A stretch of 64,000 nt of DNA from Nitrospira sp. bin75 (GCA_002238765.1 MPMZ01000006.1:1-64000); one strand, 5' to 3'. Numbered from the stretch's first letter, positions 15,577 through 30,553 are shown. The notes: generated from the letters alone by a model not told the origin. Made by a program: numbers and translations.

Positions 15577-15700
15577 CTCGGAGAGAATGGGTCGTGAATT
15601 CGGCGGGAGACTGCTGTTGCCGACCCGACGGCCATCTTATTTTCTGAAACGAGGCGTGTCAACTTTGACAGCATTTTTTCTTCTCCGCTACCGTGACACG

Positions 15701-16594
15701 ATGTCCTCTCCGGCCGACAGATCCGATTCGGCATCGATCCCCCGTTCTTCGTTTGCTCAGTTGTGTTCCCTGATCAGGCTTTCGAATCAAACGGGAACGA
15801 TCCTGCTCATGCTTCCGGTCCTGTGGGCCCTGGTCCTGGCGTCGCAAGGCCGGCCCTCCGGTCTGCTGCTCGTCCTGTTCATTGCGGGATCGTTCATCAT
15901 GCGAAGCGCCGGCGTCATTATCAACGACCTGGCCGACCGTACATTCGACCGGCAGGTCACCCGCACCCAAACCCGTCCTCTCGCCAGCGGGGCCCTTCGC
16001 CCCTGGCACGCCGTCCTGTTCCTCTGTGTCCTTCTTGCGGTGGCCGTGTGCCTGCTGTTGTTCCTGAATCCGTTGGCCATACGGCTCGGACCGGCCGCGT
16101 TGCTCCTGGCCGGGCTCTATCCCTTCACGAAACGGTTCTTCCGCGTGCCGCAGCTCTTTCTCGGACTGGCGTTCGGGTGGGGCGCCGTGATGGCCTGGGT
16201 TGCCGTTCGCAATCAGCTCGATCCCGCGGTCTGGTTGCTTTATGCCGCCGTGATCTGCTGGGCCCTGGCCTACGATACGATCTACGCGCTCCAGGACATT
16301 GAAGATGATCTTCGTATTGGCGTGAATTCGTCGGCGATTCTCTTCGGTTCCCGCGTATGGATTGCCGTGGCCATCATCGAGACGGCCATGCTGGCGCTGT
16401 TGGCCACGGCGGGTTGGCTGGAGAATCTCAATTACGCCTTCTATGGCGGACTGGCCGGCGTCGCGGGGTTCTTGAGCCAGCAGACCCTTCGCCTGCGCGG
16501 TGACGTGGCTCCTTCAGAGGCCTTTGCCATGTTCAAACAACACACGGCTGTCGGGCTTATTATTTTGATCGGGATTTGGGTGGGAACGCTGTAG
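15701..16594 (+). CDS. ubiA: UbiA-family prenyltransferase, probable 4-hydroxybenzoate polyprenyltransferase
   Basis: Integral membrane enzyme transferring a polyprenyl chain to an aromatic acceptor in quinone synthesis. Both Asp-rich motifs are present: NDLADRTFDRQVTRT (about residues 79-93) and YDTIYALQDIEDDLRIG (about 190-206). Roughly eight hydrophobic segments follow. Length 297 residues, typical. ATG 15701 is chosen over upstream in-frame starts because the N-terminal region before it overlaps the tRNA promoter side and lacks family similarity. If the organism uses menaquinone, the acceptor could instead be a MenA/MqnP-type substrate, so the precise acceptor is inferred. Confidence 0.85.
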   Translation: MSSPADRSDSASIPRSSFAQLCSLIRLSNQTGTILLMLPVLWALVLASQGRPSGLLLVLFIAGSFIMRSAGVIINDLADRTFDRQVTRTQTRPLASGALRPWHAVLFLCVLLAVAVCLLLFLNPLAIRLGPAALLLAGLYPFTKRFFRVPQLFLGLAFGWGAVMAWVAVRNQLDPAVWLLYAAVICWALAYDTIYALQDIEDDLRIGVNSSAILFGSRVWIAVAIIETAMLALLATAGWLENLNYAFYGGLAGVAGFLSQQTLRLRGDVAPSEAFAMFKQHTAVGLIILIGIWVGTL

Positions 16595-16600
16595 GTGTGT

Positions 16601-16800
16601 CGTGCGGGGTCTCGCCCCCGCACGACGAGGTCCTTTTGTTTCGGCAAAAGGACCCAAAACCATTGGCGCCCGGGCGCGGCCCTTCGAGTTCCTTTACCCC
16701 AGTCCCGTTTGCTTGGGCTGCGGAACTCGCTTCGCTCAGACAGTCTCGCCCCTCAATAGAATTTTCGGGACCGGGGCGCAGCCACGCCCGAAGGCGCCGG
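16601..16800 (+). repeat. About 200-bp dispersed repeat (family B), full copy 1
   Basis: Begins with a GTGCGGGG...CCCCGCAC stem, then AGGTCCTTTTGTTTCGGCAA and AAGGACCCAAAACC, and ends GCAGCCACGCCCGAAGGCGC. It is nearly colinear with 30743-30941, and a deleted copy lies at 60157-60230. It sits just after the ubiA stop. Reading frames through it (for example ...DEVLLFRQKDPKP...) recur between copies only because the DNA is conserved. Confidence 0.8.
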
Positions 16801-16906: not shown

Positions 16907-17989
16907 TTATTCCGGCGGGAGGATGGGCTTGTCGGGTTTGGGCGCCCGCAAGGTTTCGAGATACGACGTCACGGCTCGCGCGTCACCGTCATCGAGGCCC
17001 AGGTTCGGCATTCGCGTGTGCTTTTTCATGCCTTGCGGGTAACGGACCCAGCGATAGACCCACGTATCATTGAGACGGAACCCGGCACGGTCCAAGGCCG
17101 GTCCGACCAGACCACCAACGTCTCCGATACTGTGACACCCGTTACACCCATATTTGTTGAAGTACAGGTTTTTTCCTTTTGCTTCCAGGGCGCCTCTTTC
17201 CTCGTCCGCCACGGTCAGGTCCGGACGAGAAATTTGACTCATTCTCGGACGTTTCGAGAAATTTTCCATGGCGGTCTTGGCGGCTTCGAATTGTTCCGCC
17301 ACTTTTTCATAGGCTTCTTCTTCGGGAAGCACGATCTCTTCTTCTTCCTCTTCGTAGTCCTCCAGATCGTCCTCCTCGTCTTCCATATCCATATCTTCGT
17401 CGTCTTCTTCAGCTTCTTCTTCAGCAGCGGCCCTGGCGGCTTCCTCGGCTTCCAGTTTCGCCAAAGCTTCGTCCATGGCCTGTTTGGCTTGATCATGTTC
17501 CGCGCTGACGGCTTGGAATTTGGACTCCAGCTCGGCTTTCCGTCCGTCCACGTCGAACGTCAACGACCCTCCGTGAAGCGTCCGGACGTATCCGACCACG
17601 GCCCACAGTTCCTCTTCGGACAGGGTATATTTGAAGGTCGGCATCGTGGACACCGCGAAGTAATTTTCATCGTCGATCACTTCCTGCAACGAGGTATCCC
17701 GCATGTCGCGCGAGATCGTGTCGAAGATTTCCTTGTCTGAAAAGGTCGACATCGCCGCGTCTTCCGACAGGTCGCGAGGACGGGGGTCCGGCATGCGTCC
17801 CCAATTGAAGCCTTCCTGCTGTCTTCCACTTTCGCCGTGACAGTGCATGCAGTAATGACTATAGATCTTGCGGCCTTTCGCCGTCCGTTCATCTTCAAAC
17901 AAGGCGCATCCGCTCGTCACGGCAAACACGGCGACGACCACGACGGCGACCTTGCCCCATACCTGCTGCATGCCTCGTTCTCCCTTCAT
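16907..17989 (-). CDS. Diheme c-type cytochrome lipoprotein with acidic linker
   Basis: Last gene of the redox operon, 360 residues. An N-terminal hydrophobic segment ends in a lipobox-like VFAVTSGC, so it is probably membrane-tethered on the periplasmic side. Two class I cytochrome c domains flank a central helical linker: heme site CMHCH near residue 47 with distal Met in STMPTFKYTLSEEE, and heme site CNGCH near residue 286 with Met in THTRMPNLGL (written KKHTRMPNLG). The linker (about 160-250) is coiled-coil-like and extremely acidic, with long Glu/Asp runs around residues 190-225. Electron transfer between docking partners is the likely job. The start overlaps the stop of the upstream gene (ATGA-type). 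Confidence 0.85.
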   Translation of the reverse strand: MKGERGMQQVWGKVAVVVVAVFAVTSGCALFEDERTAKGRKIYSHYCMHCHGESGRQQEGFNWGRMPDPRPRDLSEDAAMSTFSDKEIFDTISRDMRDTSLQEVIDDENYFAVSTMPTFKYTLSEEELWAVVGYVRTLHGGSLTFDVDGRKAELESKFQAVSAEHDQAKQAMDEALAKLEAEEAARAAAEEEAEEDDEDMDMEDEEDDLEDYEEEEEEIVLPEEEAYEKVAEQFEAAKTAMENFSKRPRMSQISRPDLTVADEERGALEAKGKNLYFNKYGCNGCHSIGDVGGLVGPALDRAGFRLNDTWVYRWVRYPQGMKKHTRMPNLGLDDGDARAVTSYLETLRAPKPDKPILPPE

Positions 17990-18822
17990 GATTCGTTACC
18001 CCTCCGAATTTTTCTCACCAGGAAAAACTGAAAGCCGGCGGCAAGTACGATACCCAACACGACGTATCCATAAATGGAATTGTCCGGTGGCGGCTCGGCC
18101 CGAAAGTACCACCATGATGAAACGGCTTTCTGCGACCCTCTTTCCTTCACCGCCCCATCCACGATTTCCCCATCCCAAAACGCGAATGCCACGTTTCGCC
18201 ATTCACCGGGCGTGACTTGCACGTCATGTTCATCACCCGTTTGTAACGGCCTGGAAAACACGACGCGCCAGGTTCCGTCCTGCCAGGCGCCCGTTGCCGA
18301 GACGTTCTGATCGTCCTGCGCCCGGATCGTTTTGAACCCCTTGGCGCTCATATCGGTGGCTTTGCCGTCTTCCTTTTTCCAGTACCAGATATTGACCGCC
18401 CCTCCTTCGACCTGGAGCATTTCCTGCCCATGGGCGAAGTGGGCCATTTTATCGCCGACCATAAACTCGATCGCGGCGGCATCGGCGGCATCGTTCGACG
18501 GATCGGCGTACTCCAGCAGGATGGCCAGATCCTGTCCGTTATGGATCCCGCGAACCTTGACGGACTTCACCGTGACTTCCTGAATGCGGTCCGGCCAATG
18601 AACCTGTGGAGCCAATTTGAATTCCGCCGGCTGGATCGTGTCCCACACCGCGGCGTTCGGATCATCGGCAGGAATCGCGTCGTCCGTCAAATGCAACCGA
18701 ACGGCCACACTGCCGGCGCCGCTTTCCGGGGGCGGGTCGCTCGCGAACACGCAGGAAACCCCGGCTCCCGTCACCGTGAGGATGAGTCCAAGCGCGACGT
18801 TGAAGATCTTCTGATATCCCAT
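17986..18822 (-). CDS. Ethylbenzene-dehydrogenase gamma-like (NxrC-like) heme-b binding protein
   Basis: This 278-residue protein has a Sec signal peptide (about 1-27), a beta-rich domain typical of the EB_dh/DMSO-reductase gamma-subunit family (VRLHLTDDAIPADDPNAAVWDTI, then FKLAPQVHWPDR, VRGIHNGQDLAILLEYADPS, WRVVFSRPL, NVAFAFWDGE), and one C-terminal membrane helix (YGYVVLGIVLAAGFQFFLV). Family members bind one heme b and relay electrons from a molybdoenzyme. In Nitrospira related proteins are candidate gamma subunits of nitrite oxidoreductase (family knowledge). No NxrA/NxrB is in this window. It overlaps the diheme cytochrome gene by 4 bases, so it is co-expressed with the bc/bd-like genes. 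Confidence 0.8.
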   Translation of the reverse strand: MGYQKIFNVALGLILTVTGAGVSCVFASDPPPESGAGSVAVRLHLTDDAIPADDPNAAVWDTIQPAEFKLAPQVHWPDRIQEVTVKSVKVRGIHNGQDLAILLEYADPSNDAADAAAIEFMVGDKMAHFAHGQEMLQVEGGAVNIWYWKKEDGKATDMSAKGFKTIRAQDDQNVSATGAWQDGTWRVVFSRPLQTGDEHDVQVTPGEWRNVAFAFWDGEIVDGAVKERGSQKAVSSWWYFRAEPPPDNSIYGYVVLGIVLAAGFQFFLVRKIRRGNES

Positions 18823-18901
18823 TTTCCTGCTCCTTGGATCCTTTTCTTCGACAAAACCAACGATCGTTGGACTCTACGAGGGCGCAACCTCCCCTCAGTC
18901 C

Positions 18902-19627
18902 TTATTCCTCTTCCTCCCAGGTCCGTGGAGACTGGCCGGCGCCGTCATATTCACCCATGATAATTTTCCAGATCCATTCGTCCGGCAATTCCACTTCCCA
19001 ACGCGGCATGGCTGATTTCCATGGCATCGCTTCGACCGGAAGGCCGACGCCGCCTTTTTTGATCCGCCAGAAGAGATAGGATTCCTGCAATTGGGCGATG
19101 GTGCCGGGATCGCCGAAATTCGCCGGAGGCGGGTTGAAGCCGACCGCTGCCGGACCTTTCCCGTCGAAATTGGCTCCGTGACAGGGAGAACAAAACGCCG
19201 CATAGAGGCCTTTCCCCATCATGATATTGTTCTGCGATCTTTCATAAGGATTCGCCAGACCGACAAACTCCCCCGGAGGCGCGGGATGAATGGTCCGATT
19301 TTCCGCCGGCGGCATATCGCTTGGGGCGAGCCTGGTATACGTTTGCCACCCCACCAACACGGGGAACAACACGAACACCAGAATGCGCGCGGTCCCGGCA
19401 ATGCCCGTCTGCCCCGTGCCGGTGAGGAACCGCCCGATGGGTCCCATGAATTCGTCGAGACTTCCCCCGCTCATGGTATAGAAAATCATCGCAGAGGCCA
19501 GGGTGAGCGCCAGATACAGGAAAATCAGACTGGCCGGGAGCGGCGCGGTGAACAACGGGAGTATGAATTTGAGAAACACATACATTCCCACCAACAGGAT
19601 GACTGTTTTCGCAAGGGAACCTTTCAT
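18902..19627 (-). CDS. Membrane-anchored monoheme cytochrome c (CSPCH)
   Basis: This 241-residue protein has three N-terminal hydrophobic helices (about residues 6-27, 32-52 and 80-97), then a periplasmic monoheme domain with heme motif CSPCH near residue 146. Downstream are a candidate distal Met (AMPWKSAMPRWEVELPDEW) and a very acidic end (WEEEE). It resembles the membrane cytochrome subunits of alternative quinol oxidoreductase modules more than a soluble class I cytochrome. It is co-directional with and 15 bases from its upstream neighbour; 79 bases separate it from the NxrC-like gene. Confidence 0.85.
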   Translation of the reverse strand: MKGSLAKTVILLVGMYVFLKFILPLFTAPLPASLIFLYLALTLASAMIFYTMSGGSLDEFMGPIGRFLTGTGQTGIAGTARILVFVLFPVLVGWQTYTRLAPSDMPPAENRTIHPAPPGEFVGLANPYERSQNNIMMGKGLYAAFCSPCHGANFDGKGPAAVGFNPPPANFGDPGTIAQLQESYLFWRIKKGGVGLPVEAMPWKSAMPRWEVELPDEWIWKIIMGEYDGAGQSPRTWEEEE

Positions 19628-19642
19628 ATTTCACCCTTCCGG

Positions 19643-20251
19643 CTAAGGTGTTCCATTGACGGTAAGGGAGGCGACATCCACCTCGCTTTCCTTGCCGATA
19701 TTCATCACGTCTTCGACCTTGACGCTAATGGGTTCGCCGCTCATTTTCTGCAAAAACGAAATCACCGAATAAATCTCCTGTTGCGACAAGGCAATCGGAT
19801 TCTTGTGGATATAGGGCATGCGGGCCGGATATTCCTTGGGCAGGCCTTCATGCCTGAAATCCAGATAAATATAGGCTTGCGGCTCGGTCAGGCTTTCATA
19901 GATGAACTCCGGAGCGAGCTTGGCTCCGATGCCCTTCAGATCCGGACACCTGGCTGATTCACTCGGACCGATGGAATGACACAAGGCGCACTGCCCTTTG
20001 CTGAAAAAAATCTTTTGACCGATCGCGGCCAAATCATCAGGCGTTTTGACTTCGGCAATATCGAAGGTCTCGATGGCCGGAGGTAGAGAGGCCATCTGCG
20101 GCACCCCCAGCGCAATCAAGGTAAACGTCCCCAGGACGATCACCACGAAGCCGACCACCCTGAGAAATTTCGACTTGATGAAGAGCAGGATGCAGATTCC
20201 GACTCCTACGACAGTGAGACCGATCAATTGGAGTATTGCGACTTCACTCAT
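19643..20251 (-). CDS. Membrane-anchored monoheme cytochrome c (CALCH)
   Basis: This 202-residue protein has two N-terminal membrane helices (about 5-26 and 29-50), followed by a cytochrome c domain with heme motif CALCH near residue 90 (FFSKGQCALCHSIGP) and likely distal Met in YPARMPYIHKN. The C-terminal tail is short and has no second heme. It lies between the first CydA-like gene and the CSPCH cytochrome in the operon, and probably passes electrons between periplasmic carriers and the membrane subunits. Confidence 0.85.
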   Translation of the reverse strand: MSEVAILQLIGLTVVGVGICILLFIKSKFLRVVGFVVIVLGTFTLIALGVPQMASLPPAIETFDIAEVKTPDDLAAIGQKIFFSKGQCALCHSIGPSESARCPDLKGIGAKLAPEFIYESLTEPQAYIYLDFRHEGLPKEYPARMPYIHKNPIALSQQEIYSVISFLQKMSGEPISVKVEDVMNIGKESEVDVASLTVNGTP

Positions 20252-20323
20252 GGGTCCTCGCTCCGTTCGGTAATGCCAGCGTCAATGGTTTCTCAAGCAA
20301 GACGTCCCATCCCGCCTGCGTTT

Positions 20324-22207
20324 TCACACCTTTTCCCGTGGGGCTCCACCGGCCATGGCAGGCGCCACGCTTCCCGGGATCTCGGCCGGTGCGGGTTGTT
20401 CCTGCCCCGGGCTTTTCTTCCCTTTGTCACCCATCGTGGCCACCCAAAAGATAAACGCCACCAGCAAACAAAACACAAAGGTATTGAGGGACATGAACGC
20501 GGCCGCGTATCCCAACGCAGGAGAATAGGCGTACTCCGAGGTGTCTCTTATCACGCCGTACACGTGCCAGTGTACCCGGGAGGATGAGCGGGCATAGCCC
20601 ATCAGCGACATCAACAGGATCACCATCACCGCATTGGACACCAACGAATAGCCGGCCCGAATCGGCATTTGCCCCCAGATCATTTCCGTCGTGGTTTTGG
20701 CGCTTTTCATCAGGATGGCCGTCAAGGGCGTAAACGTCACCATCACGAACAGAACGATCAACACCTGGGCGACGGAGAAATAGTTGATCCGGATAATGGC
20801 CGGAACGAAATACCCCCAGACCCCCAGCACAATAACCGCGATCCCGGCTAGCACCAACAAGGCGCCCATGACCGATTTGGCGATCTTCGCCCACGCGGCC
20901 GTTTCCTGCTTTCCGGCCCGCCAATACATGATGAAACTCATGAACGTGACCAGAATCATGAGATTGGCCACCGTCATTTTTGCGGACATCACCCCGAATA
21001 CGCCAAGCAGCGGATGATGGGTCCCGCCCATTTTTCTGGCTTCCTCGAGACTGGCGACAAGGGAGTGGGGGGTCATCCAGACGCCCAGACACACCATGAG
21101 CACAACGAGCATGGCAAGGATCGGTCGCCTGTAGGTTCGCTCGGAGCCCGGAATCCGGTAGGTAATGCCCATCCAGAAATAGTAGTTCGCCCCGAGGAAC
21201 AACACCCCGATGAGCATCGCCTGCAGGATAAAGAGCCAAGCCAGAAATCCGCCCATGAGGGTAATGCCCATTTGCTGGTTATATTGGTAAATCTCCCGCA
21301 TGAGCCAATACCCGGCGAAAGGCAGGGGGAGCATGCCGAACACGCCGATGAAATTTCCGACGTAGCCCATCCAATCATAATGTTCCCGTTCCTCCTGGCT
21401 GGCCGCCAGGAGATACCGGATGCCGGCATAGGCACCGCAAATGAACCCGCCCAAGACCACGTTTGCAATGAGTCGATGAATGTTGACCGGCCACCACGTG
21501 GGATTCCACGTGGCCGCCCATGCCCGCTCAATCGCCGTGCCTTCCGCCACCACGACGGGACTGGCCTGGAACGTCGCCCAGGCGTTGGGGACGATCATGA
21601 TAAACAGGGCAAAGACGTTCAGCAGGAAGCCCAAGAACAGATGAAACGTCTTTTTATTTCCCTGCATGGCGTCCCATCCGTACCAGTACAGGTACAGCGT
21701 GACCGTTTCCAACAGGAATAACAGGCAGTACACGATGAAGGTCGGGAAAAAAATGTCGGACAGATACGCCATGAGCTTCGGGTACAGCCCGATCAACAGA
21801 AAGAGCAGGATGCCCCCGAACAGCGCCGTCGTGGCGTACGCGGACGTCAACAGCTTGGTGAACTCTTTTGCCAGCTTGTCGTACCGGGCTTCCTTGGTCT
21901 TCCATCCCACGATTTCGCACACCCAGGCGAAGATCGGCACGCCCAACACGAAGCCCGCCAGAAGTAAATGCTGCTGGGCCACGACCCAGACGACGTTCCG
22001 GCTGCCGACTCCGGGAATATCCCGATACTCGACGGACATCGCTTGTGACGCCGCATCCTGGGCCCAAACCATCGCAGGCAGGAGGACCAAGGCCCAGAAG
22101 ACACTCCATCCGAAGAGGGACGAGGGTTTCACCGCAGGCACCCGGGACTTCAGCTTTTCGATCATGCCGTGGTTTTTCATATGCGATCCCTCATTGAACG
22201 GTTTCAT
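20324..22207 (-). CDS. Cytochrome bd-like oxidase subunit (CydA-like), paralogue 1
   Basis: This 627-residue polytopic protein has about 14 hydrophobic segments. CydA-like features are the first-helix pattern VVAQQHLLLAGFVLG (His near residue 77) and NIHRLIANVVLGGF (His near 240), which correspond in position to known heme ligands of subunit I. The quinol-site GRQPW motif of canonical CydA is not found, and no CydB gene is adjacent. An N-terminal hydrophobic segment ending in VWAQDA looks like a signal peptide, which is unusual for CydA. Two starts (22207 and 22180) each have GAGGG upstream. In Nitrospira such bd-like proteins are candidates for the terminal oxidase (family knowledge). Paralogue of the gene at 26320-28032. 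Confidence 0.75.
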   Translation of the reverse strand: MKPFNEGSHMKNHGMIEKLKSRVPAVKPSSLFGWSVFWALVLLPAMVWAQDAASQAMSVEYRDIPGVGSRNVVWVVAQQHLLLAGFVLGVPIFAWVCEIVGWKTKEARYDKLAKEFTKLLTSAYATTALFGGILLFLLIGLYPKLMAYLSDIFFPTFIVYCLLFLLETVTLYLYWYGWDAMQGNKKTFHLFLGFLLNVFALFIMIVPNAWATFQASPVVVAEGTAIERAWAATWNPTWWPVNIHRLIANVVLGGFICGAYAGIRYLLAASQEEREHYDWMGYVGNFIGVFGMLPLPFAGYWLMREIYQYNQQMGITLMGGFLAWLFILQAMLIGVLFLGANYYFWMGITYRIPGSERTYRRPILAMLVVLMVCLGVWMTPHSLVASLEEARKMGGTHHPLLGVFGVMSAKMTVANLMILVTFMSFIMYWRAGKQETAAWAKIAKSVMGALLVLAGIAVIVLGVWGYFVPAIIRINYFSVAQVLIVLFVMVTFTPLTAILMKSAKTTTEMIWGQMPIRAGYSLVSNAVMVILLMSLMGYARSSSRVHWHVYGVIRDTSEYAYSPALGYAAAFMSLNTFVFCLLVAFIFWVATMGDKGKKSPGQEQPAPAEIPGSVAPAMAGGAPREKV

Positions 22208-22214
22208 CGTTCCC

Positions 22215-22442
22215 TCAATAGTTGTGTGGTAACAGCGGCGCGACAGTCTGACAGGTCGCCCGCAGGATCATCAAGTCCCGTGAGTAGGCCCCATACTCAT
22301 GGCGCTGCAACGGGCGCTTGAACGACGGTTGATTACAGGCCCCGTCCAACGCGCTGTTGACCATCAGGTGCAGGTCGTCGAACGTCGGATTGCCCACACA
22401 CCCGGTCACCGCCAACACCAGGCACATCGCCGCCAGTCTCAT
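22215..22442 (-). CDS. Small lipoprotein (75 aa)
   Basis: MRLAAMCLVLAVTGCVGNP is a short type II signal with lipobox AVTGC (Cys 15). The mature part of about 60 residues has two more cysteines (GACNQ, RATCQT) that could form a disulfide. It is not recognised as a family. It lies within the redox operon between the unknown membrane protein and CydA-like paralogue 1, starting a few bases after the former. ATG 22442 is preferred over a TTG at 22472. It may be an accessory or structural subunit. Confidence 0.7.
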   Translation of the reverse strand: MRLAAMCLVLAVTGCVGNPTFDDLHLMVNSALDGACNQPSFKRPLQRHEYGAYSRDLMILRATCQTVAPLLPHNY

Positions 22443-22468
22443 GATTTTTTCCCAAACATCTCCAATCG

Positions 22469-23416
22469 TCAATGCGTGTGATCGGCGGGGTTGTGCCCGC
22501 TACCGGAGGAACCGGGGGCAGCCGAAGCCGCCGGTTTCTCCTTGGGAGCCGCCTTCTCCAGAGCCTTCTCCAGAGCCTTCTCCGGGGCCTCCGCCGGCTT
22601 CTCCGCCTTCGGCGTCGCCCCCTCGGGATTCTCTTTCTCCAACTCCTTCAACGTGGCCTCGGCGCGAGCCAGGACCTGTTCCGCGCTCTTGATGACCTCC
22701 TTGGGAACGATCTCCTTTTCCGCCTTTTTCGCGTCAATGAATTCGTATTCTTCATGGGGATGCGGGGTGCTCACGGGGAGCAAGCCCCAAAACAAAAAGA
22801 TCAGCACGACGCCGGTTCCCGTAAAGGCCGTCAGCCAGAGCGGTTGGTCCCGCGGAATCCTGAGGAGATCCCATTTCGACACGATATCCTGGAACGCCCC
22901 GTCGACGGGCGCAGACGCGCGAACGAAGCGTTGCGCCAAGGCACCCAGGCCGAACAACCAGCCATACACCAGGACGATCAGGACGATGGTGACCGGCAGT
23001 CCCCACATGACCAATTCCAGGCTGATTTTTTCAGCAATTGGAATCACGAGGACGTTTTCTTCGACAACATGCAGCGTGGCGTGGACCGCTGATAGTGAGA
23101 GGGACTTGACGCCACTCACGATCATGAACAACAGGGGAAGATAGATCACGGAAAAGACCGCCCACATCCCCCACAAGCGAAGGCCCGTCCCCTTGGGAGG
23201 ATCTACGCTCAACCGTTCAAGAAAGACCGTGCGGGAGCACAGGCCGAGCGCCCAAATGTCAATGGGAATGGACAGGACGAGCAATGCTTCAAGACCGACA
23301 CCTTCCCACGGATGAACACCGGCCGCCAACATGAGAAACGCGGCGACCAGTTTCAGAGGGAAACCCGTCCAGAACGTCGGCCAAGCGACCAACAGACCGA
23401 GTTTGGCGTTCGACAT
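22469..23416 (-). CDS. Membrane protein of the redox operon with Glu/Lys/Ala-rich tail
   Basis: Unrecognised 315-residue protein. About five transmembrane helices occupy residues 8-215, then a cytoplasmic or periplasmic charged tail (about 225-315) containing low-complexity repeats (EKALEKALEKA) and a His-containing end (HNPADHTH). The stop lies one base from the cytochrome b reading frame region, in tight operon spacing. There are no obvious heme-ligand motifs, though conserved-looking His occur in the helices (AVHATLHVVEENV). Its position next to cytochrome b and CydA-like genes suggests a structural subunit of the same complex. Function is inferred only from context. Confidence 0.7.
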   Translation of the reverse strand: MSNAKLGLLVAWPTFWTGFPLKLVAAFLMLAAGVHPWEGVGLEALLVLSIPIDIWALGLCSRTVFLERLSVDPPKGTGLRLWGMWAVFSVIYLPLLFMIVSGVKSLSLSAVHATLHVVEENVLVIPIAEKISLELVMWGLPVTIVLIVLVYGWLFGLGALAQRFVRASAPVDGAFQDIVSKWDLLRIPRDQPLWLTAFTGTGVVLIFLFWGLLPVSTPHPHEEYEFIDAKKAEKEIVPKEVIKSAEQVLARAEATLKELEKENPEGATPKAEKPAEAPEKALEKALEKAAPKEKPAASAAPGSSGSGHNPADHTH

Positions 23417-23417
23417 C

Positions 23418-24524
23418 TTAATCCAAAAATTCCCTGTTGAGGATCGCGGAAACGGTGAAAATCAAAATCACCGCCATAATGGCAATCCAGCCGATCAACG
23501 CTATCGGCCGTTTAAAAATATTCCGTTCCGGATTCCTGTCGAGAAACGGTAATGCCGCCAGGAAGCCCATAAACGCTCCGGGGATCGCGACGGCCCCCAA
23601 AAACTGGCCGAATTCTCCGCCAAAGATCTTCAAGCGCAACAGTTGAAAGAGAAACAGAAAATACCATTCAGGTTCAGGATGGTAGTCCCCCGGATCCGGT
23701 GTGGCCTCTTCCAACAACACCACCGGCTCGATAAACGCCAACGTACAGATAATCAGAAAGACCGTGGCCATGGCCACGATATCCTTCCAGATCTGCCTGG
23801 GAAAGAAATAATCCGTCTTCGCCTTGATTTGTTCGGGGGTTCCACGGAACGGACCGGCGGGTCCGGCTTTGCGGAACAGGAACAGGTGGAGACCGGCCAA
23901 ACCCATTAATGCCGCCGGCAGAACCATCACGTGAATGACGAAGAACCGGCTCAGGGTCATTTGGCCCGGGGTCGGCCCCCCTTTCAGAAAACGACTCAGG
24001 AAATCCCCGACGAGCGGGGTCTTGTCCATGATCTCGACACCCACGACCGTGGCCCAATACGCCCGTTGATCCCATGGGAGCAGGTAGCCCGTAAAGCCGA
24101 ATGCCATGACCAGTCCGAAGAGAGCCAGCCCGACCAGCCAAATCAGTTCCCTGGGCTTTTTATAGGCTCCCCACAGGAACACTTGAGACATATGGGCAAA
24201 CACCATCACCACCATGGCCGAAGAGCCCCAGAAATGGTAACTCAGCAGAAACCATCCGTAATCCACTTCGTGAATGATGTATTGCGTGCTGGCATACGCG
24301 TGGTCGGTGCTCGGCACGTAGTAAAACATCAACAGAATCCCCGTCACCACCTGCATAATGAAGATGAACAGCAAACACGAGCCGAACGCATAGGCCCATC
24401 GAGACCCGCCGGGAACGGGCTCGTTCAACATTTTGGCCTGAATGGTTTTCAGCCCGACTCGTTCATCGACAAAGTCGACGACTTTTTCAAAGACATTGGG
24501 TTGGTTGGTGGTATCGCCGTTCAT
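23418..24524 (-). CDS. Cytochrome b of a bc/b6f-type complex (fused b6 + subunit IV)
   Basis: Quinol-oxidising membrane subunit, 368 residues. The N-terminal four-helix domain has both heme-ligand His pairs: YHFWGSSAMVVMVFAH (spacing 14) and IHVMVLPAALMGLAGLH (spacing 15). The 15-residue spacing in helix D is the cytochrome b6-type value. The C-terminal domain carries the Qo motif PEWY (HPEPEWYFLFLFQLLR), so the b6 and subunit-IV parts are fused in one chain, as in bc1-type proteins. It directly follows the Rieske gene (6 bases apart). Together with the c-type cytochromes this would form complex III. Confidence 0.93.
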   Translation of the reverse strand: MNGDTTNQPNVFEKVVDFVDERVGLKTIQAKMLNEPVPGGSRWAYAFGSCLLFIFIMQVVTGILLMFYYVPSTDHAYASTQYIIHEVDYGWFLLSYHFWGSSAMVVMVFAHMSQVFLWGAYKKPRELIWLVGLALFGLVMAFGFTGYLLPWDQRAYWATVVGVEIMDKTPLVGDFLSRFLKGGPTPGQMTLSRFFVIHVMVLPAALMGLAGLHLFLFRKAGPAGPFRGTPEQIKAKTDYFFPRQIWKDIVAMATVFLIICTLAFIEPVVLLEEATPDPGDYHPEPEWYFLFLFQLLRLKIFGGEFGQFLGAVAIPGAFMGFLAALPFLDRNPERNIFKRPIALIGWIAIMAVILIFTVSAILNREFLD

Positions 24525-24530
24525 AACGCG

Positions 24531-25475
24531 TTACAGCAGTCGGATTTGCCCTTTCACCCCGGCCTTGTATTCAACGTCGATGATTTGCACTTCTCCGGCG
24601 GCATTGACCTGCATCGGCAGGACGTCGAGCGGACGCGGCGCCGGGCCGTCCAGCACCTTGCCCGCCTCGTCATAGATGCTTAAATGACAGGGACACAAAA
24701 AGACCCCGTCGGGAAAATTCTTCGTTCTGCGCCACTTGTACCCGCATCCCAGATGCGGGCATTTTCCGGAAAATCCGATGTAGGGCGCCTTGGCTTTATT
24801 CACCCACACCAACTCGCCCTTGTGGTCGTAAAACTTCTTGTCTTTCCCGCCGTAGACGGCCTTTTGCACTTCGGGAGTCGCCTTCACCACCCAGATGTTT
24901 TTCTCGATCTGCTGTTCGGGCATAAAGGCTTCCTTGAAGCCCCGCGTGAACTTGAACTGGTAGCCGATGTTATCTTTTCGGATCTTGCGGACGTTACCCA
25001 CGGAAAACCACGAATTGTCGAACGGCTTGTACATGGGCTTCATGACGTATTTCAAAACGGGGAAGACCAGGGGAAGGGCGATCAACGTGCCGATCGCGTG
25101 CGTCATGTTCATGAAAAAGTTACGGCGGGGCACCCCCTGTTCGAGTTGGGGGCAGGGCACGAGAATTTCGCCGGGCTCCACGTGCAGACGATCTTCCAGG
25201 TGGGCGATTTCCACGTCGTGATGCGTGACGTAAGCGTCGCGGTCCAGCACGGGAAACGCCCTGAATTCCTCCAGCGAACCCCGCAGCACGATTTCTTCCT
25301 CATTCGGGATTTCCTGGATTTGGCCGACCGGGACCTGTCGGTCCACGCCTTGCCCGGGCCCCTCCCTGACCACCACGTGACTGATCTCGAGGGAGAGAGG
25401 ATCGACAATGACCTTGGAAATGCTGCCGACTTCCCCGTCGGCACACCGCGCTTTTGCCTTGATTTTCGGTTGCAT
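24531..25475 (-). CDS. Rieske iron-sulfur protein with N-terminal PRC-barrel-like domain
   Basis: This 314-residue protein. Residues about 1-85 look like a PRC-barrel-type beta domain (GEVGSISKVIVDPLSLEISH, VPVGQIQEIPNEEEIVL), unusual for Rieske proteins. One membrane anchor helix follows at about 120-145 (MTHAIGTLIALPLVFPVL), then the Rieske domain with both 2Fe-2S ligand boxes: CPHLGC near 237 and CPCHLS near 259. The insert between anchor and cluster is larger than in minimal Rieske proteins. It lies between a cytochrome c gene and the cytochrome b gene, so it is almost certainly the complex III Rieske subunit. Confidence 0.92.
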   Translation of the reverse strand: MQPKIKAKARCADGEVGSISKVIVDPLSLEISHVVVREGPGQGVDRQVPVGQIQEIPNEEEIVLRGSLEEFRAFPVLDRDAYVTHHDVEIAHLEDRLHVEPGEILVPCPQLEQGVPRRNFFMNMTHAIGTLIALPLVFPVLKYVMKPMYKPFDNSWFSVGNVRKIRKDNIGYQFKFTRGFKEAFMPEQQIEKNIWVVKATPEVQKAVYGGKDKKFYDHKGELVWVNKAKAPYIGFSGKCPHLGCGYKWRRTKNFPDGVFLCPCHLSIYDEAGKVLDGPAPRPLDVLPMQVNAAGEVQIIDVEYKAGVKGQIRLL

Positions 25476-25494
25476 CGAACGTCCTGAAATGAGG

Positions 25495-26301
25495 TTATTT
25501 CATTTTGATAGGCTTCGGTGTCTTGACCGAGGTATCTTTCAACGTCGCCAAAAAGGCCACCAACGCGTCCACTTCTTCATCGAACATCAAGTCCTTATAT
25601 TTGTCCGGCATTTTGCCTTTCTTGTACTGCTTGTCGAATCCTTCGGCCTTCCAGCTCTTGGGGTCGAGGATTTTTTGCCGAAGGGCGTCAGGCGTCATGA
25701 GATTGCCGATATTGTCCAACTCCGGCCCCCGCTTCTTTCCGCCTTTTCCAAAGAGTTTGTGGCAGTTGTAACACTCCTGCAGTTCCCATTGCTCCTTGCC
25801 GAGCGCCACCAGGTCGCCCGCCGCGGCCGATGACGCGGGAGTCGCGGCTTCCTCCACGACCTGCACGCCGCCGCCGAGAATTTTCAATTGTTGCTCGATC
25901 GAGACGGCCCGCGCATTCAGGGCTTTGGCCCGCGCGACCAGTTCCTCGGCTTTCCCCTGTTGGGTCCTGGCCCGGCGCGCTTTCAGGACCTTTTCAATTT
26001 TCCCTTTTTCGATTTCCGGATCGTACTGCGGCAGGCCGCTCGCCCCGCCGATGTACACGCCCGACAGCACCAGGTAAAACAACACCAGGCCGATGATCGC
26101 CTTGATGCCCTCGAGACGATTCAGGGAAGGGGCATCGAGCAGGATAAACACGCCGGCGCCGAGCATGGCATAAATAAAGAACATAACCTGGAACACGAGG
26201 GGAAAATGCGTGGCTCTTGCCACCGCCACCAGCACAATCCCCAGGATGACGCCTATGACGCCTTTTTTGACGATGTTTCGGATCAAACTTTGCTCAGCCA
26301 T
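25495..26301 (-). CDS. Membrane-anchored monoheme cytochrome c (CYNCH) with coiled coil
   Basis: This 268-residue protein has three N-terminal membrane helices (about 13-30, 35-55 and 65-85), a predicted helical coil (about 100-140, KIEKVLKARRARTQQGKAEE...), then a C-terminal cytochrome c domain with heme motif CYNCH near residue 180 and distal Met in KKGKMPDKYKDL. It is 20 bases upstream of the Rieske gene. Positionally it corresponds to the cytochrome c subunit of a bc-type complex, although the multi-helix anchor is unlike classical cytochrome c1. Confidence 0.87.
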   Translation of the reverse strand: MAEQSLIRNIVKKGVIGVILGIVLVAVARATHFPLVFQVMFFIYAMLGAGVFILLDAPSLNRLEGIKAIIGLVLFYLVLSGVYIGGASGLPQYDPEIEKGKIEKVLKARRARTQQGKAEELVARAKALNARAVSIEQQLKILGGGVQVVEEAATPASSAAAGDLVALGKEQWELQECYNCHKLFGKGGKKRGPELDNIGNLMTPDALRQKILDPKSWKAEGFDKQYKKGKMPDKYKDLMFDEEVDALVAFLATLKDTSVKTPKPIKMK

Positions 26302-26319
26302 ACTCGCTTTCCACCTCCG

Positions 26320-28032
26320 TTACTCCGCACCGGCCGGCACCGGAGCCCCTTGCGAAGCCTCCGCCTTTTGGCCGGTGTTCCTTAACGTCACGATAATGGC
26401 AAAACTCACGACGAGATAAAAAACCAGCGTGACAGCCGTAATCCACCAGGCGGAATAGGCCAGCGTGGGCGTATAGGCTTCCCGGGTAAAGTCCGGCACC
26501 AGGTTGTACACGTGGTAATACTTTCTCGTGAGGGATCGAACCGTCCCCATCAGGCCCATCGTCCAAATCGCACTGAACGCCAGGAAGATCAGCACGAATT
26601 GGGACGTGAAGTCGATCTTCCCCCAAATGATAGTTCCGCTCCTGATGGCCCGGTTATAGAGAATGTAGTTCACGACGGTCAGAAAGACCAGGGTAAACGC
26701 GGCCGCGTTCTTCGCCGGCATCAGCGCCAATTCACTCGCCCAGGAGGGAAGCTCCAATTCCTCGGTGGCCAACCCCTGTGTGGCCACAAATCCGTGAGGT
26801 GTCATCCAGATGGCATTGGCGACCACGATCATCAGAAAGCCGACCTTGATCATGGTGAAGGACGACACGGTGAATCGCAAACCCGGAAGCCTGCTCAGGA
26901 TAGGCGGGAGCACGATCAGTAACGCCAGGAAAATCAGCGACTGCCATTCCGGCGGCGGGAACATCTTCCAGGCGATACCCATGACCACCGGAATGAGGAT
27001 GACGGCGATCATGACCATCCCGGACATTCGAACCTGCTCCACGCCTTGAATCCGCTTCATACTCAGCCAGATGTAGTAGTTACTGGCCAGGAAGATCAGG
27101 CCGACCATCGCCCCCTGCATTTCAAAGAACATCGAAAGCTGATCCGCCATCATGTACGGGCAGATGGACGCGTCATAATCACACAGTTCATAGGCCAGGA
27201 GATACCCCATGAAGGGGAGAAACAGGAGGGCGCCGACGCCGATCATATTCCCCACGAACCCCATCCAGTCGTAGTACGAACGCTCCTCGTCCGTCTTGGC
27301 TCCCATATACATATACGCCGCCACCAAACCCGCAATGAACCCGCCGAACGTCACGTTTCCGACCAGCCGGTGGAGATTCAGGGGCATCCAACTGTAATTG
27401 GCGACCTTGTCCCACAAGCCCGCCGTTTGGACGAATTGAATCAGGGAGACGCCCTCCGCGGACTTGGCTGGCGTGTTCATAAACGACGTCGGCCCGTCAA
27501 TCACGAACAACGTGACCGTTCCCACCACGTTCAACAGGACCCCGATGGCGATATGCCGGGCTTTCTTTTCGCCCTTCAGCGAATCCCACGAGTAAAAATA
27601 TGCGTACAGGATAATGGTTTCGAGAATAAACAGGAGCGGATAGATCACGGCGAACACAAGGAAAAAATGTTGGATGAGCCAGGTGGTGAAACCGGGATAG
27701 GTCGCCAGCAGGACAAAAATGAACAGCCCGCCCGTCAAGGCGGTCATGCTGTACAGGATCACCGTGACTTTGGTGACCTCCTTGGCCAGTCGATCATATT
27801 TCGGGTCTTGGTTCTTGTAACCGAGCCACTCCGACACCACGGCGAATATCGGGGCGCCCAGAATAAACGCCGCAAACAAAATATGGAGTTGGGCCACGAT
27901 CCACACCCCTGTCCGGTTCCCGGTATACGGGAACTCGACGGGTGGAGGAGCCGGAGCTTGGGCATAGGCGACGGCAAGCCCTCCGAACACAAGACCTAGC
28001 AAAATCACAAGGCTGCGGGTTGAGGTTTTCAA
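26320..28032 (-). CDS. Cytochrome bd-like oxidase subunit (CydA-like), paralogue 2
   Basis: This 570-residue polytopic protein is homologous to the product of 20324-22207. They share QxHxLxAxFxLGxPIFA (VAQLHILFAAFILGAP; His near 49), NLHRLVGNVTFGGF (His near 219), a YDWMG..GN segment and WMTPH. Canonical GRQPW is absent; instead both paralogues have an HVY motif in a late loop (KYYHVYNLVPDFTREAY). A clear signal-peptide-like N-terminus ends in AVAYAQAP. No CydB partner is nearby. The second gene of the operon. It could be a terminal oxidase or a quinone-reactive membrane subunit; the sequence does not decide which. Confidence 0.75.
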   Translation of the reverse strand: MKTSTRSLVILLGLVFGGLAVAYAQAPAPPPVEFPYTGNRTGVWIVAQLHILFAAFILGAPIFAVVSEWLGYKNQDPKYDRLAKEVTKVTVILYSMTALTGGLFIFVLLATYPGFTTWLIQHFFLVFAVIYPLLFILETIILYAYFYSWDSLKGEKKARHIAIGVLLNVVGTVTLFVIDGPTSFMNTPAKSAEGVSLIQFVQTAGLWDKVANYSWMPLNLHRLVGNVTFGGFIAGLVAAYMYMGAKTDEERSYYDWMGFVGNMIGVGALLFLPFMGYLLAYELCDYDASICPYMMADQLSMFFEMQGAMVGLIFLASNYYIWLSMKRIQGVEQVRMSGMVMIAVILIPVVMGIAWKMFPPPEWQSLIFLALLIVLPPILSRLPGLRFTVSSFTMIKVGFLMIVVANAIWMTPHGFVATQGLATEELELPSWASELALMPAKNAAAFTLVFLTVVNYILYNRAIRSGTIIWGKIDFTSQFVLIFLAFSAIWTMGLMGTVRSLTRKYYHVYNLVPDFTREAYTPTLAYSAWWITAVTLVFYLVVSFAIIVTLRNTGQKAEASQGAPVPAGAE

Positions 28033-28085
28033 GGGTCGTGGCCTCCTTATGGTTTATGCCGCAAAGAACGCGGAAAGGGCCCGGG

Positions 28086-28697
28086 TTACTGGGGAGCTTC
28101 TTCGGAAGATTCTCCTCCGGCCGTTTCTCCATTTGGAGCGGCTGCTTCTTCAGCCGCCGGGGCCGCCGCCTCTCCATTCGCCGGAGCCGCCGCCTCATCA
28201 GCCGCCTGAGCGCCGGCGGTTCCCTGATGCACCCATTTCTTTGCCGCAACGTCGTATTCCATGCCCTTCAAGCCAAACGTGGCCTCATAGGCAATCGCCT
28301 TCCACCGGTCGTCCTCGGAAAGCTTGGATTTCCAGGCCTTCATTTTCGTGCCCTTGACCCCTTCGGACACGCGCCAGAACCATTGGGAATCGGAGAACAG
28401 CTTCATGTGTTCGCCATTACGGAAATCGCGGGCCCCGGCCTTGACGGGCTTCCCATCCTTGCCGTGGCAACTGGCGCAATTCACGTCGATGTTTTCCACG
28501 CCGGTAAAGATCGCTTTCCCCTGCTCGAGTATCTCCGGATTATTCCAATAGCCTTCCGGCATATGCATATCGGCGTATTCCGGCGGCGCAGGCGGCGGCG
28601 GAGCCGGCGGCTTGGCCTCTCCACAGGCCGACAACGTCACGGCCATCGCCACCACGGCAACGGCACCCAGCAAGCTGTGATATGTATCCTTCTGCAT
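28086..28697 (-). CDS. Monoheme cytochrome c lipoprotein (CASCH), first gene of the redox operon
   Basis: This 203-residue protein. The signal peptide with lipobox VTLSAC anchors it to a membrane. A Pro-rich spacer (PPAPPPPAPPEYADM) leads to a cytochrome c domain with heme motif CASCH (VNCASCHGKDG) near residue 75 and a candidate distal Met in GTKMKAWKSKLSEDD. The last 50 residues are an Ala/Glu/Pro low-complexity tail (AAAPANGEAAAPAAEEAAAP). ATG 28697 is chosen over a GTG 12 bases upstream. Genes downstream are separated by 1-80 bases, so one promoter in the upstream 460-base gap probably drives all twelve. Confidence 0.85.
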   Translation of the reverse strand: MQKDTYHSLLGAVAVVAMAVTLSACGEAKPPAPPPPAPPEYADMHMPEGYWNNPEILEQGKAIFTGVENIDVNCASCHGKDGKPVKAGARDFRNGEHMKLFSDSQWFWRVSEGVKGTKMKAWKSKLSEDDRWKAIAYEATFGLKGMEYDVAAKKWVHQGTAGAQAADEAAAPANGEAAAPAAEEAAAPNGETAGGESSEEAPQ

Positions 28698-29160
28698 GAC
28701 AACCCCCATTTTCGATTTGGTCTATGTGTCAGTAAACGGTCCGAGCGTCAAAAACCCGGCTCTTTTTTTTTCTTCCTCTGAGAAGTCTTTCTTTCAGCCT
28801 CACAAGGGAAGCCCTTTCTCCATCACCATAAATATCGGACAAACTTTTCCCTTGGCCTTCTTCCTCCTATCTGCCTGCACAGTCAGGATGACCGACGGTC
28901 ATGTTCTCAAGCGCCATGGCCCCCTCGACGAGCCACAACCTGGTAATAATAGGGTGGGATAGCGTATGACGGGCTGCCTAAAATTGAGTCCGGGTCTTGC
29001 CACTTGTGAGAGCCTTTCCAGATGATGCGCTTTTCCTTTGGAGAGACCACACCTCAATCCTTAAGCAACTGTTTTACAGGAAGGAAATTTCCAGGCAAAA
29101 GGTCCGTGACTTCTAGCATAAGGGGCTTTGATCTGTCAATCATCAAGCCCCTGAAAAGGT
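28698..29160. other. Long intergenic region containing the redox operon promoter
   Basis: A gene-free 460-base stretch. On the minus strand, TTGACG (28746-28751) lies upstream of a weak CATAG-type box near 28722-28727, about 25 bases before the operon start. A T9 tract (A9 on the minus strand) lies at about 28765-28774. No repeat family was recognised and no small ORF has a ribosome site. The length fits a regulated promoter, but no operator is identifiable by eye. Confidence 0.4.
29121..29152 (-). terminator. Hairpin terminator after the hpnH operon
   Basis: On the minus strand AGGGGCTT ... AAGCCCCT (stem 29121-29128 with 29145-29152; partly extended by TGAT/ATCA) lies about 9 bases after the stop of the gene at 29161. 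It is followed by only two Ts, so it is a moderate candidate. Confidence 0.5.
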
Positions 29161-29547
29161 CTATTTCCTCTCCTCCTGGCGTTTCCGTACCCAAGCTTCC
29201 CAGGATTCTCCGGAAGCCGTATCCTGCCCCGTAAAATGGAAGGCGTGAATCTCGCGGCAGGGGATTTTTCGGGAATCGGAATGATCGGGTTGAAACAACT
29301 CCACGTAGGAACGCGGCCCATCCCACACGCGATTAAAGAGATAGCCGCTGACGTATTCCCGGGACTTCAGTTCCAGGGTCATATCGCCCCGGTACCCAAA
29401 AGCCAATTCAATGACTCTGCGCAACTCCTGCTCGGAGTTTGGACGAAACACGGCTCCCTGGAGACTTCGATCAGACGGCTCTGCAAGTCCATCCTGAGAC
29501 ATGGGCACCGTGACAGCTAAGCCGGCAAGAGGGCCGTCAGGTCGCAT
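29161..29547 (-). CDS. Hypothetical protein downstream of hpnH (up to 128 aa)
   Basis: Not recognised. A soluble, mixed-charge protein containing RPNSEQELRRVIELAFGYRG and GPRSYVELFQPDHSDSRKIP. The frame overlaps the end of hpnH by 11 bases, so the two are translationally coupled. A second candidate start (MSQDGLAEPS) lies at 29502. Coupling to hpnH hints at a hopanoid-side-chain or membrane-lipid context, but nothing in the sequence shows function. Confidence 0.6.
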   Translation of the reverse strand: MRPDGPLAGLAVTVPMSQDGLAEPSDRSLQGAVFRPNSEQELRRVIELAFGYRGDMTLELKSREYVSGYLFNRVWDGPRSYVELFQPDHSDSRKIPCREIHAFHFTGQDTASGESWEAWVRKRQEERK

Positions 29548-30553
29548 TGGGGAACAGCATGGCCTTCACGGTTCCGGTAAGCCCGGACCACGAACTGAAC
29601 GTTTCCGCCACGGCCGAGGCTTCGAACCCGCAATGCACCATGCAGTCCCGACATTTCTCATTGCGCCCGACGCCGTACTGCTCCCACGCCGTTGTCTCGA
29701 GCAATTCCTTGAAACTCGACACGTATCCGTCCTGCAAAAGGTAGCAGGGCTTCTGCCAGCCGAAAATATTGTAGGTAGGATTTCCCCAAGGCGTGCATTG
29801 ATACTCACGCTTGCCCATGAGAAATTCCAAAAACAGGGGGGACTGGTTAAACCGCCACCGGCGTTTCCGCTTCGTGAGCACGTGCGAAAACAGTTCCTGC
29901 GTCCGATGTCGTTTTAAAAACCCATGTTGGTCCGGCGCCTTTTCGTAACTGTAGCCGGGTGAGATCATCATCCCCTCCACTCCGAGATCCATCATCTCGT
30001 CAAAAAAGGCCCGGACCCGCGGAGGATTCGCGTCGTTGAACAGGGTCGTGTTGGTGGTCACCCGGAATCCTCTTTTCAACGCGGCTTTAATCGCTTTCGT
30101 CGCGACGTCATAGACCCCGTCACGACACACCGCGAGATCATGCTCATCGCGCAACCCGTCCATGTGGATACTGAAGATCAAATGGTTGGAGGGTTTATAT
30201 TCGTCCATCTTGCGTTCCAACAGAAGCGCGTTGGTACACAAATAGACGAATGTTTTACGGCGCACCAACCCTTGAACGATCTCCGCCATCTCGGGATGAA
30301 TGAGTGGCTCCCCACCGGGAATGCTGACAATGGGCGCTCCGCATTCTTCAACCGCCGCCCAACATTGTTCAGGCGTCAACCGCCGGTCCAACACGTGCTC
30401 GGGATACTGGATCTTTCCACAACCGGCACAGGCCAAATTGCACCGAAAGAGCGGCTCCAGCATCAAGACCAGCGGATAGCGCTCGACGCCCTTGAGTTTT
30501 TGCGAGATCACGTAGCTGACGACCGTCAGCATCTGGGAGAGAGGAACAGCCAT
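29537..30553 (-). CDS. hpnH: Adenosyl-hopene transferase HpnH (radical SAM)
   Basis: Adds a 5'-deoxyadenosyl group to diploptene, the first step in making extended C35 hopanoids. The 338-residue protein has the radical SAM 4Fe-4S motif CNLACAGC (CxxxCxxC) near residue 38, SIPGGEPLIHPEM after it, and a Cys-containing C-terminal region (CRDCMVHCGFE) typical of HpnH. The N-terminus MAVPLSQMLTVVSYVI and overall length agree with the family. It lies on the same strand as shc, hpnG, dxs and ispG a few kb away, which supports the hopanoid assignment. Confidence 0.95.
   Translation of the reverse strand: MAVPLSQMLTVVSYVISQKLKGVERYPLVLMLEPLFRCNLACAGCGKIQYPEHVLDRRLTPEQCWAAVEECGAPIVSIPGGEPLIHPEMAEIVQGLVRRKTFVYLCTNALLLERKMDEYKPSNHLIFSIHMDGLRDEHDLAVCRDGVYDVATKAIKAALKRGFRVTTNTTLFNDANPPRVRAFFDEMMDLGVEGMMISPGYSYEKAPDQHGFLKRHRTQELFSHVLTKRKRRWRFNQSPLFLEFLMGKREYQCTPWGNPTYNIFGWQKPCYLLQDGYVSSFKELLETTAWEQYGVGRNEKCRDCMVHCGFEASAVAETFSSWSGLTGTVKAMLFPNAT

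Follow-up and report, generated by a model that had tools for sequence, protein, structure and literature searches.

The closest described counterpart of the gene cluster analysed here is a region of Nitrospira moscoviensis, in which Mundinger et al. (2019) recognised CIII_1, bd-like_1, bd-like_2 (putative complex IV), alt_nxrC_1 and several cytochromes c, and which was strongly and consistently highly transcribed throughout (PMC6606698). A III/IV supercomplex, possibly meeting nitrite oxidoreductase (NXR) via alt_NxrC_1, was proposed in 2019 (PMC6606698). The NIDE0901-like protein has been named OR-N2 and its partner OR-N1, the two together being CydAA' (PMC12342949). OR-N enzymes, whose subunit composition is unproven, likely take electrons from cytochrome c, not from quinol, and complex III is probably reversed for CO2 fixation (PMC10839748, PMC12324825). 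The literature searched yielded no biochemical proof that an OR-N enzyme reduces O2. The gene sets TO_1 to TO_4 of 'Ca. Manganitrophaceae' share a bd-like protein, cytochromes c and an EB_dh protein with the present cluster, and some are accompanied by cytochrome b/Rieske genes (PMC9040806).

The window, that is, the whole stretch of 64,000 nucleotides from Nitrospira sp. bin75 (GCA_002238765.1 MPMZ01000006.1:1-64000), carries twelve consecutive minus-strand ORFs at 16907-28709, as established from ORF calls and translations; the reading direction is from 28709 to 16907. Intergenic gaps are mostly shorter than 80 bases, and 4-base overlaps are present at 17986-17989 and 22469-22472. The genes were designated A to L in transcript order (5' to 3'):

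A: 28086-28709, minus strand; monoheme c-type cytochrome with a lipobox-like signal and the motif CASCH (Pfam Cytochrome_CBB3, 6e-9); opens the conserved order.
B: 26320-28032, minus strand; bd-like membrane protein of 570 aa, of the bd-like_1/OR-N1 type by position (PF01654, 1.3e-20, N-terminal half).
C: 25495-26301, minus strand; monoheme cytochrome c with three N-terminal hydrophobic segments (Pfam Cytochrom_C, 1.7e-11).
D: 24531-25475, minus strand; Rieske protein with an N-terminal PRC-barrel-like domain (about residues 1-88), an RR-x-F-F motif and one TM segment (Pfam Rieske, 1.1e-7).
E: 23418-24524, minus strand; cytochrome b, a single polypeptide with b6-type His spacing and PEWY (PF00033, 1.1e-50).
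F: 22469-23416, minus strand; membrane protein, no match in the Pfam scan.
G: 22215-22472, minus strand; 85-aa ORF with a lipobox-like start, present in three near relatives only.
H: 20324-22207, minus strand; bd-like oxygen-reductase candidate of 627 aa, bd-like_2, NIDE0901-like, OR-N2 type (PF01654, 1e-19).
I: 19643-20251, minus strand; membrane-anchored monoheme cytochrome c with the motif CALCH (Pfam Cytochrom_C, 2.1e-7).
J: 18902-19627, minus strand; membrane-anchored monoheme cytochrome c with the motif CSPCH (Pfam Cytochrome_CBB3, 3.4e-7), in the conserved order.
K: 17986-18822, minus strand; NxrC-like/EB_dh protein of the alt_NxrC_1 type, with a signal peptide-like start and a C-terminal TM segment (EB_dh, 2.9e-21).
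L: 16907-17989, minus strand; diheme c-type cytochrome with a lipobox-like signal and the motifs CMHCH and CNGCH (Pfam Cytochrome_CBB3, 4.3e-17, two stretches).

A preliminary description of this DNA had reported a tightly spaced twelve-gene minus-strand run with short gaps and two overlaps, and the ORF calls and translations bear this out. Its parts list was also correct: five CxxCH proteins with six heme sites were counted (A, C, I and J, one each; L, two), and the cytochrome b with PEWY, the Rieske protein with both boxes, the two CydA-like proteins and the EB_dh-like protein agree with Pfam and with the residues described below. In the Pfam scan of the cluster, Cyt_bd_oxida_I was matched twice, each time partially and over the N-terminal half alone (1e-19, 1e-20); Cytochrome_B (1e-50), Rieske (1e-7), EB_dh (3e-21) and cytochrome c domains were matched as well, and NCBIfam likewise fitted the gene list. 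The 'lipoprotein' gene of that description stands as an ORF (G) and falls as a conserved member of the cluster: it was found in L006-L008 only, two of which have in-frame stops in its upstream extension. G is a doubtful or accessory gene, and because it is restricted to these three near relatives the conserved unit consists of eleven genes.

The genes are those of the N. moscoviensis region (PMC6606698), with small ORF G as an addition in the present cluster. A search of genome contigs with H yielded 80 loci, and tblastn with the twelve proteins recovered the same order throughout, up to the end of each contig, including N. moscoviensis (L033; 39-87% identity per protein) and N. defluvii (L055). 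By profile mapping 47 Nitrospirales loci span the whole region. In 42 of these the genes follow one another as A-B-C-D-E-F-H-I-J-K-L without interruption, and the remaining five show only divided or duplicate calls of a single gene, merged frames or missed calls; in L025, F and I lack separate calls. In L032, L023, L074 and L076 the matches to B, H or K are split inside otherwise intact clusters, likely through frameshifts in metagenome assemblies. The arrangement is conserved far beyond chance, and since it recurs in N. moscoviensis and N. defluvii as well, the cluster is standard equipment of Nitrospirales. The gene-order comparison that the preliminary description called for thus shows a conserved order; its view of the combination of parts as unusual did not hold, because this respiratory core is carried by practically all Nitrospira-type nitrite oxidisers, has already been described and is ordinary for Nitrospirales.

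Upstream of the cluster (29161-30553, minus strand) lie genes for a radical SAM protein with DUF3463, which we take to be HpnH-like, and for a 128-aa protein with no Pfam match; this pair precedes the cluster in nearly all loci reaching that far. At the other end, a UbiA-family prenyltransferase gene (15587-16627, plus strand) converges on the cluster and is followed immediately by a 12-pair stem and then T-rich sequence. A promoter scan returned 10 sites against 7.2 expected and was uninformative.

With cytochrome b6f/bc1 the cluster shares the four heme His, PEWY, the Rieske boxes and the b6-type His spacing; it differs in having no recognised c1/f, no b6 Cys for heme ci, an unsplit cytochrome b and a Rieske protein with a PRC-barrel. 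In E, His97, His111, His198, His213 and PEWY (residues 285-288) are invariant in 66 orthologs, and the second His pair is spaced by 15 residues. The place of the b6 Cys (heme ci), residue 46 of E, is taken by Ala, Val or Ile in a by-eye alignment to b6. E is accordingly classed, from its residues, as a b6-type, unsplit cytochrome b predicted to lack heme ci. The cluster boxes of D (C239-P-H241-L-G-C244 and C261-P-C263-H264) are invariant in 19 orthologs. PF05239 (PRC) matches residues 1-88 in 14 of the 19 (best 2.2e-4), the window's own copy not being among the reported matches. The PRC-barrel part is followed by a twin-arginine-like motif and a single TM segment and should lie on the cytoplasmic side; mean identity is 53% for the PRC part vs 72% for the Rieske part. 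No match to c1/f was obtained for the five c-type cytochromes with Pfam, nor for four of them with NCBIfam. C adjoins the Rieske and cytochrome b genes in every cluster mapped and is by position the candidate cytochrome-c subunit of the bc module, a substitute for c1/f.

Heme ligands of the bd-like proteins were mapped by profile alignments with E. coli CydA and 23 canonical CydA of the phylum, which covered the N-terminal half; these were used instead of a plain alignment to E. coli CydA, which placed H186 and E445 wrongly in H. The profile alignments show that the equivalents of CydA H19 and H186 are kept (H80 and H244 in H; H50 and H221 in B). E107 is also kept, the equivalent of E99 is lost, and the Q-loop residues K252 and E257 have no equivalents in H or B. 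No CydB-like gene was recognised by Pfam among the twelve. In a restricted alignment the GRQPW box falls on SRVHWHVYG of H (E 1.9e-6) and is weak in B (0.003); over this region H and B align with each other at 6.5e-21. The equivalent of CydA E445 (heme b595 ligand) is an invariant Ser, Ser541 in H and Ser500 in B, the alignment of B again being weak (0.003). M407 and M438 are conserved near the place of CydA M393 (heme b558 ligand), in a C-terminal half that is not reliably alignable. In 35 true-H rows, His 276, 397, 398 and 546 vary little or not at all, and none of them has a counterpart among the conserved His of B.

The homology of H and B is nearly full-length (hhalign E 3.5e-98). Of the two bd-like proteins of the cluster H is by a wide margin the better conserved: identity reaches at least 95% in 370 of its 627 columns and in 136 of 570 for B, for which the family rows exclude H paralogs. 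AlphaFold2 models reached a pLDDT of 79 for H and 63 for B, and for both the top Foldseek matches were CydA chains, with modest TM-scores. In the tree B forms its own clade, and both proteins lie outside the canonical CydA clade. Tree and residues together fit the OR-N feature of two non-canonical CydA-like proteins with no quinol site, and the published OR-N1/OR-N2 CydAA' likewise comprises two CydA-like proteins in one cluster without quinol-site residues (PMC12342949, PMC10839748). H was taken as NIDE0901-like via its N. defluvii ortholog (L055, 77%), and the OR-N labels rest on that locus and on PMC12342949. The phylum-level homologs in L136-L139 were rejected as true H, since they group with bd-like_3/4 proteins in the tree. 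Elsewhere (L182:326-6391), a ferredoxin-like protein and a molybdopterin oxidoreductase of the TAT type have a divergent B-like protein and a diheme C-like one as neighbours, which suggests that a bd-like protein serves a Mo enzyme as its membrane partner.

H and an I-type cytochrome c form one polypeptide in 12 distinct loci (L125, L126, L128-L135, L169 and L218); the fused I parts keep the CALCH motif and match the I model at E 1e-51 to 1e-74. Because of this fusion, I is probably the donor of electrons to H, and the fusion is the strongest sequence evidence here for physical contact. In the tree L126 and L128-L135 form one clade, L125 stands beside the unfused L123/L124 and L218 derives from the window's own order, and these scattered places indicate that fusion or fission probably occurred more than once. 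A 1077-codon frame joining F, H and I (L025:7122-10352) retains the start Met of I and was left uncounted, as a misassembly could have produced it, although a genuine triple fusion is also possible.

K matches PF09459 (EB_dh) with 77 bits against a cut-off of 33, and the NCBIfam model of heme-b subunits, TIGR03477, at 8e-31, yet under its curated cut-off. Its PDB relatives are Kuenenia NxrC and EbdC. At the place of the heme b ligand, the Met of the xMG[DQ] motif, K has His131; a conserved Met135 lies nearby. Docking of K to NXR is speculative.

Profile mapping of stretches from 20 places, in relatives at class and phylum level, showed the cluster coming apart in some of them. In the sister families f8/f9 it is complete in L120, L121 and L122, and in L126 with H and I fused; F is shortened in these families to about 90-126 aa, with one segment and a charged tail. 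Nine genomes (G120, G140, G156, G164, G166, G222, G236, G274 and G294) encode a true H, as judged by the tree, and have no B-level match and no close relative of cytochrome b E (best 46% identical, in G120). Several of them resemble TO_2 of 'Ca. Manganitrophaceae' (PMC9040806), with two MrpD/NuoL-like pumps. TO_2-like loci differ from the present cluster in these pumps (PF00361), in a short cytochrome b and in the absence of B; compared with the 'Ca. Manganitrophaceae' terminal oxidases (PMC9040806), L129-L135 contain H in all cases and homologs of J, K and L in most. The opposite case is L180 (G290, a genome of the window's own taxonomic order), where I and L come after A-F and H, J and K are absent, the best H match of G290 being a 46% paralog. 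L218 (G148) has A-F and the fused H-I, with no J-L in the 13 kb read. G006 and G025 possess a 57% relative of the cytochrome b and lack B, so that the association of B with bc genes is one-way there.

In this small sample, then, B occurs with bc genes rather than with H, which is also where it departs from the published OR-N1/OR-N2 CydAA'. An obligate OR-N1/OR-N2 pairing was not found, H occurring without B in nine genomes and B without H in L180, in assemblies that are a few percent incomplete. Since the modules are separable in relatives, co-transcription alone is no proof of a single complex.

The assembly of the window is 97.8% complete. In this genome neither a heme-copper oxidase (PF00115, COX1) nor the NrfD-like protein of Alternative complex III (PF03916) was matched, and none of its four PF01654 proteins is a canonical CydA: all are bd-like, namely B, H and two on contig C76. 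E is the only PF00033 match. N. moscoviensis, in contrast, has a second cytochrome b and a canonical bd oxidase (PMC6606698), both absent here. Genes of nxrA/nxrB size (alpha and beta) are located on contig C33, outside the cluster; nxrAB lies apart from it in other Nitrospira too (PMC6606698). The C76 region (G000:C76:33001-54000; L140, L148) encodes, besides the two bd-like proteins, a pair of cytochromes c and an EB_dh protein of 609 aa with two heme sites at its start, and is probably the counterpart of bd-like_3/4 and alt_NxrC_2. As no other oxidase was found, one bd-like protein would have to reduce O2 if the organism respires O2; the two C76 proteins could be the oxidase instead of those of the cluster.

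We consider it probable that the cluster encodes the central chain of respiration in a nitrite oxidiser of the Nitrospirales, a chain composed of a quinone module and an oxygen module. The quinone module (A-F) would be a bc-type complex III with E, D and, in place of c1/f, C, plus B and F; the oxygen module (H-L) would be a bd-type oxygen reductase without a quinol site. H would reduce O2 using electrons from its own cytochrome c, I, itself presumably fed from nitrite oxidoreductase by J, L and the NxrC-like K. Forward flow would run from nitrite through cytochrome c, I and H to O2, conserving energy; we infer a reverse, pmf-driven flow from cytochrome c through C, the Rieske protein and cytochrome b to quinone, which would feed CO2 fixation. 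The two-module reading is favoured because parts and order are conserved, H and I are fused in relatives, no other type of oxidase, no NrfD and only one cytochrome b are encoded, nxrA/nxrB-sized genes are present on C33, and the H19 and H186 equivalents persist in H and B, the Q-loop residues being lost and E445 replaced by Ser; further, the orthologous N. moscoviensis region is highly expressed (PMC6606698) and cytochrome c is the presumed OR-N donor (PMC10839748, PMC12324825). Against it count the lack of J, K and L near the fused gene of L218 and the two bd-like proteins on C76 as alternative candidates for the oxidase. That electrons from NXR are linked to the quinone pool and to oxygen, as the preliminary description had suggested, is the accepted reading, and the 'switchable module' it envisaged would be a reading of the parts list. 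Its supercomplex had already been published by Mundinger et al. (2019).

A pairing of B and H (OR-N1 and OR-N2) as one heterodimeric CydAA' oxidase, the bc genes being mere neighbours, is the proposal of the literature (PMC12342949, PMC10839748), and a serious one that falls somewhat short of an even chance. The nearly full-length homology of the two proteins and their joint presence in Nitrospirales and f8/f9 speak for it; against it stand nine relatives that have a true H and neither B nor this cytochrome b, L180, in which A-F, I and L occur without H, and the absence from B of four His that are strongly conserved in H (276, 397, 398 and 546). That the published pairing is wrong, the oxidase being H with its dedicated I (a bd-fold cytochrome c oxidase with extra conserved His) and B a subunit that serves electron transfer within a modified bc complex, is put forward tentatively, as rather unlikely.

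A related idea is that all eleven products might assemble into a single stable supercomplex, with K docking it to NXR. Order and spacing conserved over Nitrospirales and joint high expression in N. moscoviensis (PMC6606698) would agree with this, but shared regulation of separate complexes would yield the same order, and the losses of modules in relatives weaken the idea, also as a part of the two-module reading; we regard it as possible and somewhat doubtful. Finally, H might be an electron-transfer or quinone-reducing membrane protein, with another bd-like protein reducing O2. The Ser at the E445 position of H and B, the loss of the E99 equivalent, a C-terminal half without a Pfam CydA match and the divergent B-like protein next to a Mo enzyme in L182 all point that way. 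This is nevertheless unlikely, given a genome without heme-copper or canonical bd oxidase and the standing of H as the most conserved bd-like protein of the cluster, fused to cytochrome c in relatives.

Beyond published work, the present analysis adds the H-I fusion, the separation of the modules and the Rieske PRC-barrel, each of which may be known already although none came up in the open-access papers searched, together with the oxidase and cytochrome b inventory of this genome; in open-access text, no paper on a Rieske-PRC-barrel protein was found and no report of CydA fused to cytochrome c was seen. In the literature consulted, the presumed main oxidase of Nitrospira is a putative bd-like OR-N enzyme. 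From the H-I fusion its likely electron donor can be read, and the fused protein is a single-polypeptide relative suited to expression and testing; the separate occurrence of the two halves of the cluster makes both the 'one supercomplex' and the 'OR-N1 plus OR-N2' models testable.
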